From Acinetobacter sp. ANC 5054 (GTDB lineage Bacteria; Pseudomonadota; Gammaproteobacteria; Pseudomonadales; Moraxellaceae), in NCBI RefSeq assembly GCF_002135295.1, contig NZ_NEGG01000012.1, positions 1 through 64,000 of the forward strand: a DNA stretch of 64,000 nt, read 5' to 3'. The position numbers were made by a program, and so were the translations under genes. Below the pieces are notes generated by a model. It was given only the letters and a program-made list of their open reading frames with translations. It searched no databases and was not told the DNA's origin. This document shows positions 1 to 45,888 of the stretch, piece after piece; the stretch's first letter is position 1; every line of letters starts with the position of its first letter.

Positions 1-29
1 TATATTACGCTTTCTTTTCAGAAAGTCAA
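1..29 (-). promoter_or_regulatory. Strong-looking leftward promoter at the window edge
   Basis: Read on the minus strand, TTGACT (24-29) lies 16 bases before TAATAT (2-7), close to the sigma-70 consensus. It would drive a transcript leaving the window to the left, so its target is not visible. A highly expressed RNA or protein gene is possible, but that is inference. Confidence 0.45.
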
Positions 30-337
30 CTAGCAAATCAAATTATTTTAAACTTTCTTAACAAAACCCAATCTAAACACTTCGTGCTAAGTTGCTGTTT
101 TATCAGAAGTTTTAATCTTCATTACCGCCGATGGATGTGCATTCTACAGCATTTCAGTACCGTTGCAACACCTATTTTTAAATATTTCTTTCGAGCGGGT
201 GTTTTTTACTCAAATTACATTTTTTTATTCAATTTTTAATCAAATTTGCTTTAATAGTAATTATTCAAGATTATTTGAACGTTTTTACTTATGATACGGC
301 AAACACTTTTGCTGAGTTAAAAGCGTCAGGACACAAT
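1..337. other. Intergenic region before the mlaA-like gene
   Basis: No open reading frame of note lies here. It holds the leftward promoter described above and AT-rich sequence upstream of the rightward gene. A TTG codon at 275 is in frame with that gene but lacks a ribosome-binding site, so I treat 275-337 as leader. Confidence 0.5.
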
Positions 338-1306
338 ATGCGCCATACTTCTTTTTTATATGCTGGGTTACTGTCTTTTGCTGTAACAGTTCCAGCATTT
401 GCAAATGACGAACCTGCTATAGAAGCTGATAACAGTTCAGAATCTGCCAATAAATCTAAAACACAACAACTTGCGCATACTGCGATGGTCAAATCATCAG
501 AAGTTGCAAAAAAATTATCTATTAATGCGAATGCTGCACAGTCAGACGAAGATAAAGATCCTTTTCAACCCTTAAACCGTCAGGTTTATGCGTTTAATGA
601 TTATTTAGATACACATGTCGCACGCCCACTTGCCATTCAATATGTCAAGAAAACACCTCAAGATATGCGTGAATCTTATCGTTCTTTTCGTAAAAACTTG
701 GGTGAGCCTTGGAATGCATTTAATCAGCTTATTCAAGGTCGCCCATCTCGCGCCGCAAAAACATTAGGCCGTTTTACTGTTAATACCTTAACCACACTTG
801 GTTTTGCCGACCCAGCAAGTCGTTTAGGCTTAACATCTGAAGATGAAAACTTTGGTGCGACTTTAGGATACTATGGTATTCCTTCTGGGCCTTATATTGT
901 TTTGCCCGTACTCGGTCCGAGTACCATTCGTCAAAGCATCGGCTTGGCTGTAGATAGTCAAGGCCGCCCTCAAAAATATATGTTAGATGGACATGATGCA
1001 GCATATTGGTCAGAGCAAGCTTTACGTGGGATAGATGCTCGTTCACAGCTACTTGATATTGAAGGCGCTTTACAAGGTGACCGATATTCGCAAATTCGTG
1101 ACTTTTATCTACAACGTTTAAGTTATTCAATTGCAGAAAAGAAAGGCATTGCTGAAGAAAACCTTTTTATTAGTGATGATGATGAAACCTTTGAGGACGA
1201 TGAAGATAATTCAACCGATACTTCAACTGATGATTCAACCAATGAGTCTACTGAAAATCCAGATGACAATATCGATGACGAGACTGATACCGATATTGTA
1301 AATTAA
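338..1306 (+). CDS. mlaA: MlaA/VacJ family outer-membrane lipid asymmetry protein
   Basis: The MlaA family removes misplaced phospholipids from the outer leaflet of the outer membrane and passes them to periplasmic MlaC. Residues about 74-270 carry family hallmarks: DPFQPLNR near the start, then GEPWNAFNQLIQG, GRFTVNT and GIPSGPYIVLPVLGP. I chose the ATG at 338 because it follows CAGG at good spacing and opens a clean signal peptide ending in PAFA. There is no lipobox cysteine, unlike E. coli MlaA, so this may not be a lipoprotein. The last 40 or so residues are an unusual Asp/Glu/Thr/Ser-rich tail, probably disordered. The rest of the Mla system is not nearby. Confidence 0.88.
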   Translation: MRHTSFLYAGLLSFAVTVPAFANDEPAIEADNSSESANKSKTQQLAHTAMVKSSEVAKKLSINANAAQSDEDKDPFQPLNRQVYAFNDYLDTHVARPLAIQYVKKTPQDMRESYRSFRKNLGEPWNAFNQLIQGRPSRAAKTLGRFTVNTLTTLGFADPASRLGLTSEDENFGATLGYYGIPSGPYIVLPVLGPSTIRQSIGLAVDSQGRPQKYMLDGHDAAYWSEQALRGIDARSQLLDIEGALQGDRYSQIRDFYLQRLSYSIAEKKGIAEENLFISDDDETFEDDEDNSTDTSTDDSTNESTENPDDNIDDETDTDIVN

Positions 1307-1403
1307 ATAATTTTTTCAATTGGCTGGTATGGTTTTTCCCTCCAGCCTTGTTTTGCTTGTTATAGTACGTTTATTCATTATCAAAGGATTCATCTGATTC
1401 TTT

Positions 1404-2372
1404 ATGTATTTCATTCAACCTACTCGTGATATTCCGTATTTAGATCAAGTACTTGATACACTTCCGAGTGTTCAAATGATTCACATTGAAGATCTAGACC
1501 TATACGATCCAACTATTATTGCTATTGCAGATGTTGCTGATTATTTAAACCATCAGTGGACGATTCCAACTATTGTTCTGGCTTTTGAAAATGAAGGCGC
1601 GGCATTGGCGCAAGCATGGCAACAAGGTGCACTAGCTGGCTGGGTATGGAACCATTTACCTGAAAATTTACAAGATGCTTTGATTAAGATTGATGCTCAA
1701 TATAAACGTAATCAGGATAGCCGAGATTTGCCGTCGGCAGCAGAATTACAAAAGCGTTTATTACCCAATCCCATTGAATTGCAAAATTATAAAGTCGAAA
1801 CTTTCTTTCAACCATCTGCATATTTATCTGGCGATTGGTACGATTATTGGAAAATTAGCGACAAAGAAATCATTTTCTATTTAGCCGATGTTTCAGGACA
1901 TGGTGTGACAAGTAGTTTATTGACTTCATGGATGGCAGCGTTCCATGGGCGCTCAAAAACCCCACGTGAGTTAATCAAAAAACTGAATGGCATGTTGGTT
2001 CAGGAAAATATTGAAAAGCATATCACCATGATTGCGGGTACATTAAATCTCGAAACGCATGTTTTAAAGTGGTCAAGTGCTGGACACTATCCTCCTGCAA
2101 TTTTATTTGAACCGGGCTTACCCGCTAAAATTTTAAATACCAGTAGTTTTCCGCTTGGCTTGACTGAAGATCTAGAAGTTGAAGAGTTTGAATTTACCTT
2201 AAATCGCTACTCACGCTTTGTAATTTGCTCAGATGGTGCACTCGAACCTTTTGATGGCGGACTGAATGAACAACTTGGTCAATTGGTTTATCATTTGCAA
2301 AATCAATCATTTCAGGCACCTGACCATGTTGCCGATGATATTGCCATTTTAAGTTTACGTCGAATCAATTAA
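1404..2372 (+). CDS. gigA: SpoIIE/RsbU-type PP2C serine phosphatase, GigA-like
   Basis: A 322-residue protein. The N-terminal 100 residues look like a degenerate receiver-like domain. Residues 110-322 form a PP2C (SpoIIE) phosphatase with metal-binding motifs GDWYD (143-147), ADVSGHG (161-167), SDG (276-278) and DD (311-312). Such enzymes dephosphorylate STAS anti-anti-sigma proteins, and a STAS gene follows at once. Family and neighbourhood match GigA of Acinetobacter baumannii, reported with GigB to control stress and antibiotic responses through the nitrogen phosphotransferase system. The fold and motifs are seen; the gig name rests on memory of that system. The start ATG has only a distant AAAGGA upstream. 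Confidence 0.85.
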   Translation: MYFIQPTRDIPYLDQVLDTLPSVQMIHIEDLDLYDPTIIAIADVADYLNHQWTIPTIVLAFENEGAALAQAWQQGALAGWVWNHLPENLQDALIKIDAQYKRNQDSRDLPSAAELQKRLLPNPIELQNYKVETFFQPSAYLSGDWYDYWKISDKEIIFYLADVSGHGVTSSLLTSWMAAFHGRSKTPRELIKKLNGMLVQENIEKHITMIAGTLNLETHVLKWSSAGHYPPAILFEPGLPAKILNTSSFPLGLTEDLEVEEFEFTLNRYSRFVICSDGALEPFDGGLNEQLGQLVYHLQNQSFQAPDHVADDIAILSLRRIN

Positions 2373-2483
2373 CCCTAAAATCAATAATTTAACCACATAA
2401 GACTTTCTTACGATACTCACCCACTTGAGTAAGCGTTGGCCCTATGGGATAATTTACTATCCTTCTCTGCAAATGGCATTTAT

Positions 2484-3002
2484 ATGTCAACAGGTCATGT
2501 TGAATATGCAAGCTTGAACGGAACGCATATTTTTAAGCTCATTGGCGAAGTGCGTGCCCAATCTTGTATTAGTCTAGACAAATTACTGAACAAAATTGAA
2601 CAGCAACAAAATGTAGTTGGTGCAATCGTTGATTTAACCCAAACGACATTTATTGATAGTACCGTTCTCGGCATTCTTGCCAAGCTTGGTTTGAAACTGA
2701 AACAAGTTCATCATATCCAAGCGGTTATGCTGTCTACAAATTCTGATATTTCAACGCTTGCAAATAGCATGGGCTTGGGTCAGGTGTTTGTCATCTTAAA
2801 TTACTGTGGTGATCCAAGTGTATGCACGCGTGCGCTCATGGAAGAACACATCACACATAGCAACATGCTAAATACAGTTTTAGATGCGCATAAAACGCTG
2901 ATGAAGCTAAATGACAGCAATCAAAATATGTTTGAGCCTTTGGTGAAGCAACTGCAAAAAGAGCAGGAAAATCTTGACCAAACAAGCCAGCAAAAAGCTT
3001 AA
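2484..3002 (+). CDS. gigB: STAS-domain anti-anti-sigma-like protein, GigB-like
   Basis: A 172-residue protein with a STAS domain at about residues 5-105. The loop FIDSTVLG (residues 56-63) is the typical site where STAS proteins are phosphorylated on Ser or Thr; here Ser59 and Thr60 are candidates. The remaining 65 residues are a helical, Gln/Glu-rich tail not typical of minimal STAS proteins. I start at ATG 2484, which gives the compact STAS beginning; an in-frame TTG at 2436 adds 16 residues of no STAS character. The gene lies 111 bases after the phosphatase and very likely shares its transcript. It should be the phosphatase substrate. In A. baumannii GigB is reported to act on NPr, whose gene is also in this window (44771-45040). 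Confidence 0.82.
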   Translation: MSTGHVEYASLNGTHIFKLIGEVRAQSCISLDKLLNKIEQQQNVVGAIVDLTQTTFIDSTVLGILAKLGLKLKQVHHIQAVMLSTNSDISTLANSMGLGQVFVILNYCGDPSVCTRALMEEHITHSNMLNTVLDAHKTLMKLNDSNQNMFEPLVKQLQKEQENLDQTSQQKA

Positions 3003-3034
3003 TTCATAATAAAAAGAATGGATATACTCGCCTC

Positions 3035-3859
3035 ATGCCTTTAGTTTCCGTTGCACAAATGAATTCACAAAATGACATTGAAGAAAACTTCAAAGTGATT
3101 GAATCGTTGATGCAACAAAGTCAGGCGCAAGGCGCGAGTCTCATTGTGTTTCCTGAGAATTTTGTATGTTTTGCTGCTGGAAAACAGCGTGAAACTGCCG
3201 CTCAGTTTGAAAGTATTCAACAACGTTTGGAACAACTGGCACACCAATATCAACTATGGATTGTTGCGGGCACACTACCGTGCCCTTTTCGCCCTGACGG
3301 TTCAGTGATTCAAGATGGTCGTGTTCGTACTGTAAGCTTATGTATTAGCCCAGAAAAAACTGAAGCACGCTATGACAAGATTCACCTCTTTGATGTGCAA
3401 GTCGGTGATGCTGTAGGGGGTTATCAAGAATCTAAATTTTTTGAACCCGGCACAGATCTTGTCGTTGCCAATACCCCTTTTGGCAATATTGGTTTGATCG
3501 TCTGCTATGACCTTCGATTCCCAGAACTTGCACTGAAACTACGTACAAAAGGCGCGAATATTTTGACTGCGCCTGCAGCATTTACTTACACCACAGGGGA
3601 AATGCACTGGCAACTGCTTTTACAAGCACGAGCAATGGATACCCAATGTGCTGTTTTAGGTTCTGCGCAACAAGGTTGGCATGGAGAAAAGCGTCAAACT
3701 TGGGGACATACGGGCGCAGCCAATAGCCATGGTCAAATACAAAATATCATTCAGACCGAAGGTGCTGGCTTAATTACCGTACCATTTGATTTGTTGGAAC
3801 AAACAAAAATCCGTGAATCGATGCCACTGATGCAACATCGTGTTTTAGTGCAATACTAA
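3035..3859 (+). CDS. Carbon-nitrogen hydrolase (nitrilase superfamily, Nit1/NIT2-like)
   Basis: A 274-residue cytosolic hydrolase with the nitrilase-superfamily triad: Glu41 in VFPENF, Lys115 in RYDKIHLFD and Cys157 in VCYDLRFPE. The RYDKIHLFDVQVGD pattern with a short FEPGTDLV segment fits the Nit/omega-amidase branch. Its members hydrolyse deaminated glutathione or alpha-ketoglutaramate, making this probably a metabolite-repair amidase. The exact substrate cannot be read from the sequence. It begins 32 bases after the STAS gene on the same strand and may be co-transcribed with it. No terminator is visible after it. Confidence 0.85.
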   Translation: MPLVSVAQMNSQNDIEENFKVIESLMQQSQAQGASLIVFPENFVCFAAGKQRETAAQFESIQQRLEQLAHQYQLWIVAGTLPCPFRPDGSVIQDGRVRTVSLCISPEKTEARYDKIHLFDVQVGDAVGGYQESKFFEPGTDLVVANTPFGNIGLIVCYDLRFPELALKLRTKGANILTAPAAFTYTTGEMHWQLLLQARAMDTQCAVLGSAQQGWHGEKRQTWGHTGAANSHGQIQNIIQTEGAGLITVPFDLLEQTKIRESMPLMQHRVLVQY

Positions 3860-3870
3860 ATTTCAAAGCG

Positions 3871-3891
3871 TTGTATTGATTAAAATTACAA
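3871..3891. promoter_or_regulatory. Candidate operator (imperfect palindrome) before ohr
   Basis: An AT-rich imperfect palindrome, TTGTA at 3871-3875 mirrored by TACAA at 3887-3891, sits about 73 bases before the ohr start. OhrR-type MarR regulators bind AT-rich palindromes upstream of ohr. No ohrR gene is in the window, so this is a suggestion only. Confidence 0.2.
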
Positions 3892-3963
3892 AAAAACTGA
3901 ATATTAATTAAGCAAAATCCCACACGATAAGGTTCTAAGCAATCATCATAGGGATTACAAAAA

Positions 3964-4392
3964 ATGACTTTAGAAAAAGCTGTTTATACTGCCCATGCCA
4001 AAGCAACAGGTGGCCGCGATGGTCGTGCAACGACTTCTGACGGTCATTTAGATGTACAACTTGCCGTGCCTAAAATTATGGGGGGCACAGGCAATGGAAC
4101 CAATCCAGAACAATTATTTGCTGCGGGTTACTCTGCCTGCTTTTTAGGTGCAATGAAATTTGTGTCAAACCGAGACAAACTCAATATACCCAAAGATGCG
4201 TATGTTGAAGGCGATGTCGGGATTGGTCCGATTCCAACAGGATTCGGGATTGAGGTTACTTTAAATATTCACCTAGAAGGGATGGATGCAGCTGAAGCGA
4301 AAAAGCTAGTCGATGCGGCGCATATTGTCTGTCCATACTCCAATGCCACACGTAATAACATTAATGTAACGCTGAATATTGTGACCGAATAA
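3964..4392 (+). CDS. ohr: Organic hydroperoxide resistance protein (Ohr/OsmC family)
   Basis: A 142-residue thiol peroxidase. Ohr proteins reduce organic and lipid hydroperoxides using two cysteines and lipoyl-dependent recycling. Both are present: Cys59 in GYSACF and Cys123 in IVCPYSNATR. The N-terminal GGRDGRATTSDG pattern and PEQLFAAGYSACF are typical of Ohr rather than OsmC. The length is normal for the family. AGGGA lies upstream of the ATG at workable spacing. The gene stands alone between an amidase and a small exported protein. It is probably induced by peroxides, but no regulator gene is adjacent. Confidence 0.95.
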   Translation: MTLEKAVYTAHAKATGGRDGRATTSDGHLDVQLAVPKIMGGTGNGTNPEQLFAAGYSACFLGAMKFVSNRDKLNIPKDAYVEGDVGIGPIPTGFGIEVTLNIHLEGMDAAEAKKLVDAAHIVCPYSNATRNNINVTLNIVTE

Positions 4393-4415
4393 ATCATCCG
4401 ATCTATTATAAAGCT

Positions 4416-4454
4416 TGAGCACTTCTGGTTTAAACCAATAACAAGGGGTGCTCA
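4416..4454. repeat. Nested inverted repeats downstream of ohr
   Basis: Seven-base arms TGAGCAC (4416-4422) and GTGCTCA (4448-4454) enclose a perfect 12-base palindrome, TGGTTTAAACCA (4426-4437). No U-run follows, so it is not a standard intrinsic terminator. It could be a weak terminator, an mRNA 3' end structure or a protein-binding site. Confidence 0.4.
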
Positions 4455-4588
4455 TTATCAAATATCATTCCAAGTTTGCATTATTCATCATCGTTCATTG
4501 AAAGCAGATACGTTAAATCTCTAATTCTCAAATGCTTTAAATCTTGTTAAAATAAAACTGATTCTCATTTACGTTTTTTGTGCTTCTT

Positions 4589-44770: not shown

Positions 44771-45040
44771 TTAATCTGCCTCGTAAAATTTTGCTGCAAA
44801 GAGTGCTTGAATTTCAGACAAAGCTTTTTCTTCATCTGCACCTTCAATCACTAAGCGTAAAGTTGTGCCCTTGCCTGCACCAAGCATCAGCAAAGACATA
44901 ATATTTTTGGCATCGACTAATTTTCCACCCTTACCAATCTGTATCGACGAGCGAAATTTGGTAGTGACTTCAATTAGCTTGCCAGATGCACGCGCATGTA
45001 AACCCAGTTTATTTATTACATCAACAGTTGTGTCGATCAT
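44771..45040 (-). CDS. ptsO: Phosphocarrier protein NPr (HPr family) of the nitrogen PTS
   Basis: An 89-residue HPr-like protein. His15 in [12 protein letters not shown] is the phosphorylation site, passing phosphate from PtsP (EI-Ntr) to PtsN. The [13 protein letters not shown] segment is the regulatory helix region of the family. The start at 45040 overlaps the rapZ stop as ATGA. rapZ-ptsO is a known pairing and identifies it as NPr, not sugar HPr. In A. baumannii this protein links to GigA/GigB, also present here at 1404-3002. Confidence 0.95.
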
Positions 45041-45888
45041 GACCAGTGCTTCATTTCTCTGTGTAGAACCTGAATAGACCATTTTGCCTCAAGGGCTTTT
45101 TTTAGTCTATCAACGATATATACCGAACGGTGTTGTCCACCTGTACAACCGATCGACACCGTCATGTAATGACGATGCCCTTCGGCAAATGCCGGCAGCC
45201 ATTTATCCAAGAAATGATAAATATCTTGGAACATTTCATTGGTTTGCTCACTTTGTTGTAAAAACTCACGAACAGGCTCATCCAACCCAGAATATTTACG
45301 TAGTTCCATATCCCAATGTGGATTGGGTAAATGACGAACGTCAAAAACATAATCTGCATCGAGAGGAATCCCATGTTTATAACCAAAGGATTGTAAAATC
45401 AGAATTAAATTATCTGCCTGTCCCAATCGAGACAACAAAGTATGCTTTAAATCATGCACGCTCTTGTCGGTAGTATCAATATGCACCGTAGAGCGCATTT
45501 GAATGGGCAACAGTAAAGATTTTTCTTCCTGTATACACTCATTCAAACTTTTGAAACGGCTAGCCAGCGGATGGGGACGACGTGAAGAACTAAAACGCGC
45601 AATCAATTCCTGATCACGCGTTGTTAAATAAATAATATCGACTGAGCCATAGCGCTGCAGTTGCTGAAAGACCAGATCAAATTCTTGTAAATCAGCGCGA
45701 GTGCTACGAACATCAACACCCAATGCTAACTGTTCAAGATTATTCTCTGAATCCAGTTTTTCAACAATTTCGGGTAATAATGCTAGTGGCAAATTATCAA
45801 TACAGTAATATCCCAAATCTTCAAGTATCTGCAAAGCAGATGACTTTCCTGATCCAGATTGTCCTGTAACAATTAAAATGCGTTTCAT
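45037..45888 (-). CDS. rapZ: RNase adapter protein RapZ
   Basis: A 283-residue protein with an N-terminal P-loop domain (Walker A GQSGSGKS, residues 8-15; [29 protein letters not shown]) and a C-terminal RNA-binding domain with the family signature [11 protein letters not shown]. In E. coli RapZ binds GlmZ/GlmY small RNAs and sets GlmS levels for cell-wall precursor supply. The very end, REMKHWS, is slightly different from E. coli. It is coupled with ptsO. Confidence 0.96.

Follow-up and report, generated by a model that had tools for sequence, protein, structure and literature searches.

RESULTS

The gigA-gigB locus

Close to its start, the window (i.e., the whole 64,000-nucleotide stretch of DNA that was analyzed) carries on the plus strand mlaA (vacJ; positions 275 to 1306), gigA (1404 to 2372), encoding a SpoIIE/RsbU-type PP2C phosphatase of 322 aa, gigB (2484 to 3002), encoding a STAS protein of 172 aa, and a gene for a carbon-nitrogen hydrolase (3035 to 3859). 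Across our genome collection, gigA lies directly 5' of gigB in 80/80 named loci and mlaA is the upstream neighbor in 78 of the 80, whereas the hydrolase gene follows gigB in 48/48 Acinetobacter/Alkanindiges loci and in 0/32 of the other named loci. The A. baumannii locus L097 has the same gene order and neighbors, with full-length identities of 82% (GigA) and 83% (GigB). Because of these identities and the locus order, we assign the pair as the GigA/GigB of Acinetobacter, in its ordinary form for the genus, as an earlier note on this DNA, wary of low identity, had proposed. Published work likewise places gigA/gigB directly 3' of vacJ in A. baumannii (PMC10878099). The A. baumannii pair (ABUW_3260/ABUW_3261 in AB5075) thus comes from the same genus, stands in the same mlaA-gigA-gigB-hydrolase order, and shares with the window the collapsed receiver of GigA and the promoter-like site in the intergenic gap (both described below), leaving only ordinary species-level divergence, the compared locus L097 being that of strain ACIN00150 rather than AB5075. 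The closest named GigB is that of A. amyesii (97%), and no relative turned up among viral contigs scanned for GigB. Many Acinetobacter draft contigs, the window contig included, start about 2.2 to 2.9 kb before gigB, which suggests a long repeat just 5' of mlaA; no Rfam family at gathering score and no tRNA was found within the window.

The gap between gigA and gigB (2373 to 2483) belongs to a pattern seen in Acinetobacter and Alkanindiges. In a sample of 22 of the 48 named loci of these genera (among L063 to L110), the gap measures 102 to 113 nt in 19 and 180, 179, and 270 nt in the other three, whereas spacing is ≤3 nt in 56/61 loci outside them. Within the gap lies a putative gigB promoter (2425 to 2453, plus strand), composed of TTGAGT, a spacer of 17 nt, and an extended -10 element, TATGGGATAAT (2443 to 2453). 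The motif TATG[GT]GATAA is present in the gap in 23/23 Acinetobacter/Alkanindiges sequences, including the window, versus 28 of 46,000 shuffled gaps. Because promoter-like counts in positions 1 to 4500, like those of terminator-like elements, are at the level of shuffled sequence, it is conservation across these 23 related sequences that argues for the site.

GigA retains a PP2C active site behind a collapsed receiver

The phosphatase domain of GigA was recognized by Pfam (PF07228, E 6.1e-23), and GigA is the one SpoIIE-type phosphatase found genome-wide. Its catalytic aspartates (D144, D147, D162, D277, D311, and D312) are all present and are invariant in 32/32 aligned GigA proteins, so that the PP2C active site is whole, as the earlier note had stated, while most of a receiver has been lost from the N terminus (residues about 1 to 104). 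The predicted structure of GigA is of middling to good confidence (mean pLDDT 85.5, pTM 0.66), and its N-terminal part forms a small alternating strand/helix domain of ~100 residues.

Outside Acinetobacter/Alkanindiges, the receiver signature of GigA (DD, D, S, and K) is preserved in 31/32 named loci. The tabulated close relatives of the window GigA, by contrast, lack the acidic pair and carry Ala in place of Ser and Trp in place of Lys, and the window N terminus aligns like those of these receiver-degenerate relatives. No receiver match was obtained for the window GigA with Pfam, and profile comparison of the Acinetobacter N terminus with Pseudomonas-type receivers was weak (29 columns, probability 4%). 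Judged by collinearity, predicted fold, and gene order, the N terminus of GigA in Acinetobacter/Alkanindiges is a collapsed receiver. Asp43, at the end of the third N-terminal strand, is invariant in 15/15 sequences, and an Asp of the receiver may persist in the collapsed domain. Two other Moraxellaceae genera (L043 to L048) have an intact GigA receiver, yet in G032, a genome from these genera, the ptsN family TIGR01419 found no match, which suggests that loss of ptsN preceded loss of the receiver. Key receiver residues of GigA/RssB are also lost elsewhere (L027, L035, L042, L036/L049, L050, L051, and L052), with Glu in place of the phospho-acceptor Asp in L036, L050, L051, and L052.

GigB carries an invariant acceptor motif and a conserved C-terminal extension

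GigB consists of a STAS domain (residues 1 to 108; PF01740, 26.4 bits versus a cutoff of 22.6 when scanned with the longer TTG start) and a conserved C-terminal helical extension (residues 125 to 158). The likely start codon is the ATG at 2484; it is preferred over the TTG at 2436 because single-base indels of relatives, in a conserved upstream stretch, shift the longer frame. With this start, the presumed phospho-acceptor site is Ser59-Thr60 (codons at 2658 to 2663, plus strand), within a D58-S59-T60 motif that is intact in the window and invariant in 32/32 aligned relatives; both the residue numbering and the intactness of the motif given in the earlier note were correct. Arg24, Cys28, and His136 are likewise invariant among GigB/RssC proteins (22/22 and 32/32 in two alignments), His136 lying in the C-terminal extension. 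This extension and the STAS part are conserved to a similar degree (mean majority share of 0.69 and 0.72, respectively).

The predicted GigB structure is also of middling to good confidence (mean pLDDT 84.8, pTM 0.62). Its STAS part matches SpoIIAA (Z 14.0) and RsbV (Z 12.8), and none of the listed PDB matches covers the C-terminal extension, which does not imply that the extension is novel. STAS matches genome-wide comprise two SulP transporters, one MlaB-like protein, and GigB. The transporters and the MlaB-like protein, whose neighbors resemble MlaC and MlaD as we read the frames, were rejected as rival partners of GigA, and no free-standing protein of the anti-anti-sigma type was found as the different STAS partner that the earlier note had considered.

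The genome encodes NPr and PtsP, and EIIANtr was not found

The gene ptsO (44771 to 45040, minus strand) encodes an NPr phosphocarrier of 89 aa (PF00381, E 1.3e-25), with His15 in the sequence KLGLHARAS. It overlaps rapZ (45037 to 45888, minus strand) by 4 bases and belongs to the run pcnB-folK-panB-panC-rapZ-ptsO-darP, all on the minus strand, where the earlier note had placed it; the identities of rapZ and darP were checked, and the other names in the run are readings of the frames. NPr is the one PF00381 protein found genome-wide. The earlier note had also called for ptsP and ptsN to be located: one PtsP-type protein, with GAF and PEP-utilizing domains, is encoded on another contig, and for ptsN, which encodes EIIANtr, there was neither a TIGR01419 match nor a PF00359 match over the cutoff, the single weak PF00359 match holding an internal stop. 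This absence was judged with these two families in an assembly of 24 contigs whose completeness is rated at 100%. NPr and PtsP without a detected EIIANtr is the set that accompanies GigA/GigB in Acinetobacter. A. baumannii is reported to lack EIIANtr (PMC6282199), and a 2026 review citing STRING lists Acinetobacter with PtsP and PtsO and without PtsN, and does not mention GigA (PMC13104625).

The distance between ptsO and gigAB in the window, 42 kb, was discarded as functional evidence. It reflects genus-level synteny, the two loci being 28 to 97 kb apart in 36/41 tabulated genomes, and such proximity is not required, because in 5/41 they are 1.6 to 2.5 Mb apart (contig coordinates). The suggestion of the earlier note that the circuit joins stress signaling with CoA, folate, and cell-wall control genes drew on this neighborhood of ptsO only, and we do not retain it.

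GigB and NPr are inherited together in Moraxellaceae

A GigB profile matched 130/249 Moraxellaceae genomes, each at E 1.1e-53 or better. A stand-alone (short-frame) NPr is present in exactly these 130, and neither protein was found in the remaining 119, leaving 0 discordant genomes; the link between GigA/GigB and NPr drawn in the earlier note is supported by this count. More specifically, PF00381 matched 146/249 genomes, and in the 16 of these without GigB the sole HPr match lies inside a frame of 942 to 1021 aa. The HPr matches of these 16 genomes were therefore rejected as NPr; two of the frames were checked and confirmed as EIIA-HPr-enzyme I fusions. The enzyme I family PF05524 matched the same 146 of 249 genomes as PF00381, and the frames among the matches listed fall into a class of 599 to 822 aa (PtsP) and one of 960 to 999 aa (FruB). 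Enzyme I was placed in the fused protein for G229, G233, G270, and G176 among the 16 GigB-less genomes, and PtsP follows the GigB/NPr genome set as far as the PF05524 matches listed show.

One of these genomes, G270 (L149), belongs to the same genus as the window. It is a single contig, 99% complete, with no GigB match and no stand-alone NPr, and its sole HPr and enzyme I matches fall in one fused FruB-type protein. The family-wide figures count genomes rather than independent losses, of which there are few, probably at least two, one accounting for the GigB-less genera and one for G270 inside the genus. Such co-inheritance speaks to membership in one pathway and not to the direction of phosphate flow; on the evidence of gene content, it fits a role of GigB as the point at which phosphoryl groups leave a nitrogen phosphotransferase system (PTSNtr) without EIIANtr.

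Across the order, the association is looser. GigB matches were obtained in 146/195 genomes, a count that retains G094 and G140, whose weak matches in frames over 840 aa are probably not GigB. HPr was matched in 186/195 genomes and TIGR01419 in 177/195, with nothing but weak matches in G094, G140, and G176, so that true absence of ptsN may be higher. An HPr match accompanies GigB in 145/146 genomes versus 41/49 genomes without GigB (Fisher P = 7e-5, uncorrected for relatedness), and eight of the nine genomes without HPr also lack GigB, the exception being G019. The reverse dependence fails, and NPr outside the family does not require GigB: an HPr match remains in those 41 of the 49 genomes lacking GigB. 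By these counts GigB follows NPr across the order, and the strict association is particular to Moraxellaceae. TIGR01419 was unmatched in 18/195 genomes of the order; 14 of these have an HPr match, and GigB is present in 7 of the 14. Two smaller sets were also observed: G003, G011, G019, G073, and G103 have a TIGR01419 match and no HPr-family protein was found in them, and G007, G076, G101, and G125 (family f8, genus g12) have NPr, with neither ptsN nor GigB found. In the latter set, NPr would have another client, or ptsN would be divergent.

A stand-alone anti-sigma kinase was not found

No stand-alone RsbW-like anti-sigma kinase was found among five PF13581 matches genome-wide (E up to 1), and none of the five adjoins gigAB, in agreement with the earlier note, which had seen no such kinase next to the pair. 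All five are long frames, namely, three HisKA histidine kinases, a protein of GyrB/ParE type, and a HATPase protein of 686 aa. The 686-aa protein (L008; G000:C18:255680) has a C-terminal HATPase_c domain and no HisKA match, and is encoded ~2 kb 3' of a SulP transporter gene.

These results bear on a classical partner switch, in which a separate anti-sigma kinase would phosphorylate GigB, GigA would reverse the modification, and GigB would sequester an anti-sigma factor, thereby freeing the sigma factor. The resemblance of the GigB STAS part to the SpoIIAA and RsbV structures, and of GigA to RsbU-type phosphatases, speaks for such a switch, and a STAS acceptor Ser is paired with a PP2C phosphatase in the SpoIIAA/RsbV systems and in HsbR/HsbA of P. 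aeruginosa as it is in GigA/GigB, in which the C-terminal extension of GigB falls outside the SpoIIAA-like matches. However, SpoIIAA/RsbV switches have the kinases SpoIIAB/RsbW, and the kinase of HsbR/HsbA is HsbR domain 3, whereas no stand-alone counterpart was found here, and GigB tracks NPr in the 249 genomes. We thus consider a classical partner switch improbable.

GigA/GigB correspond to the RssB/RssC pair of Pseudomonas

The best NCBIfam match of GigB is RssC_Pseudo (E 1.4e-34, model positions 1 to 158 of 159) and that of GigA is RssB_Pseudo (E 6.1e-27, in the phosphatase part), the scores falling below the equivalog cutoffs in both cases (119.2 versus 250 for RssC_Pseudo and 94.7 versus 700 for RssB_Pseudo). 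As in the RssB/RssC loci of P. aeruginosa (PA2798/PA2797; structures 3EQ2, 3F7A, and 3F79) and Azotobacter vinelandii, the pair lies 3' of mlaA, with homology over the length of RssC. Among known structures, the GigA model most resembles P. aeruginosa RssB, with Z 25.5 for the phosphatase domain (3f79) and, over the full length, Z 23.9 (3f7a) and 23.4 (3eq2). The full-length comparisons give an rmsd of more than 20, a value that a different arrangement of the domains in GigA and RssB would account for. In addition, P. aeruginosa PA7 encodes at the gigA locus a protein with near identity to the 3EQ2 chain. From sequence, gene order, and modeled structure, we conclude that GigA/GigB are the RssB/RssC gene pair of Pseudomonas, under two names in two literatures. 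PA2798/PA2797 are named as gigA/gigB homologs in one source (PMC13218686), and the P. aeruginosa pair or structure is named RssB/RssC in others (PMC12143880; PMC12923157). In the open-licence literature, we found no paper that brings RssB together with GigB and a single one that brings RssC together with ptsP and RpoS, in passages that present RssB/RssC and PTSNtr as separate routes (PMC12923157).

The two versions of the pair differ in several respects. The phosphorylatable receiver of RssB (acidic pair, Asp, Ser/Thr, and Lys), intact in those 31/32 non-Acinetobacter/Alkanindiges loci, is lost in the window GigA; the RssB/RssC genes overlap or nearly touch, whereas the window genes are separated by ~110 nt; and the client of RssB/RssC is RpoS, which A. 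baumannii and its relatives are reported to lack (PMC10325922). E. coli RssB also combines a receiver with a PP2C-derived fold and matches GigA over its full length (6od1; Z 17.0, rmsd 16.5, 274 residues), but it is described as a pseudo-phosphatase adaptor (PMC12143880), whereas GigA retains the PP2C aspartates.

A reading modeled on RssB would have GigA and GigB deliver a client protein to ClpXP, gated by phosphorylation of GigB, as RssB/RssC do for RpoS in Pseudomonadaceae. Although the identity of the gene pairs invites this reading, the reported absence of RpoS, and the retention by GigA of its entire PP2C active site after loss of most of the receiver, make it very doubtful in Acinetobacter.

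DISCUSSION

We consider it quite probable that in this species the GigA/GigB module works with the nitrogen PTS as a drain that unloads NPr. PtsP would take phosphate from PEP and pass it to His15 of NPr; NPr, in a genome where EIIANtr was not found, would hand it to GigB, at the serine of Asp-Ser-Thr (Ser59); and GigA, as a PP2C phosphatase, would strip it off again. Together, GigB and GigA would form a drain that holds NPr unphosphorylated under stress, and the output would probably lie in whether NPr (or GigB) is phosphorylated rather than in an RsbW-type partner switch. In A. baumannii, phosphate transfer from NPr to a GigB serine is reported to be possible and GigA to dephosphorylate GigB (PMC7948535), and loss of ptsP suppresses or restores gigA/gigB mutants (PMC8371402). 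We infer that the same NPr-GigB-GigA chemistry operates in this species. Phenotypes of the gig genes are strain dependent, antibiotic resistance being unchanged by loss of gigA/gigB in ATCC 17978 (PMC8371402), and this counts against the proposed drain. NPr has also been suggested to act as an anti-sigma factor for RpoE in A. baumannii (PMC9426528), a possible function that would merge with the drain.

We take Ser59 to be the first acceptor residue in GigB, and a relay could precede it, given that Cys28 and His136 are invariant. PTS carriers normally hand phosphate to His or Cys, and a transfer from His to Ser is unusual chemistry in a PTS. NPr might thus first phosphorylate His136 or Cys28, with Ser59 modified second or by another route; the invariance of these residues together with Arg24, and the position of His136 in an extension conserved about like the STAS part and outside the listed PDB matches, would fit such an order. 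However, this invariance may be structural, and it is a serine that the published summary names (PMC7948535). We regard a first transfer to His136 or Cys28 as unlikely and Ser59 as the preferred acceptor.

A broader proposal, to which we give a little less than an even chance, is that GigA/GigB and RssB/RssC represent a single ancestral module with the nitrogen PTS as phosphodonor. In Pseudomonas and Azotobacter, NPr would phosphorylate RssC, thereby making RpoS stability responsive to PEP/nitrogen state. In Moraxellaceae, without EIIANtr and with RpoS reported absent in print, the module would have become the only acceptor at the end of PTSNtr, with PtsP, NPr, and GigB kept or lost together; in Acinetobacter/Alkanindiges, GigA would have lost its receiver input and gigB gained its own promoter.

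The GigA/GigB switch itself is known and is ordinary for the genus; the new evidence is the strict co-inheritance of GigB and NPr in Moraxellaceae. It argues strongly, though on genomic grounds only, that Acinetobacter keeps NPr for the sake of GigB, and PTSNtr in lineages lacking EIIANtr thereby gains a candidate output in GigB. Joining GigA/GigB with RssB/RssC gives RssC a candidate phosphodonor in NPr, and phosphorylation of RssC by NPr in Pseudomonas would be a prediction of this identity. Together, strict co-inheritance with NPr and the identity with RssB/RssC make it possible to test what phosphorylates RssC and through what output a PTSNtr lacking EIIANtr acts. They also offer a possible reason why mutations in ptsP and in gigAB or PA2797/PA2798 alter aminoglycoside susceptibility, as reported for some strains (PMC13218686; PMC8371402).
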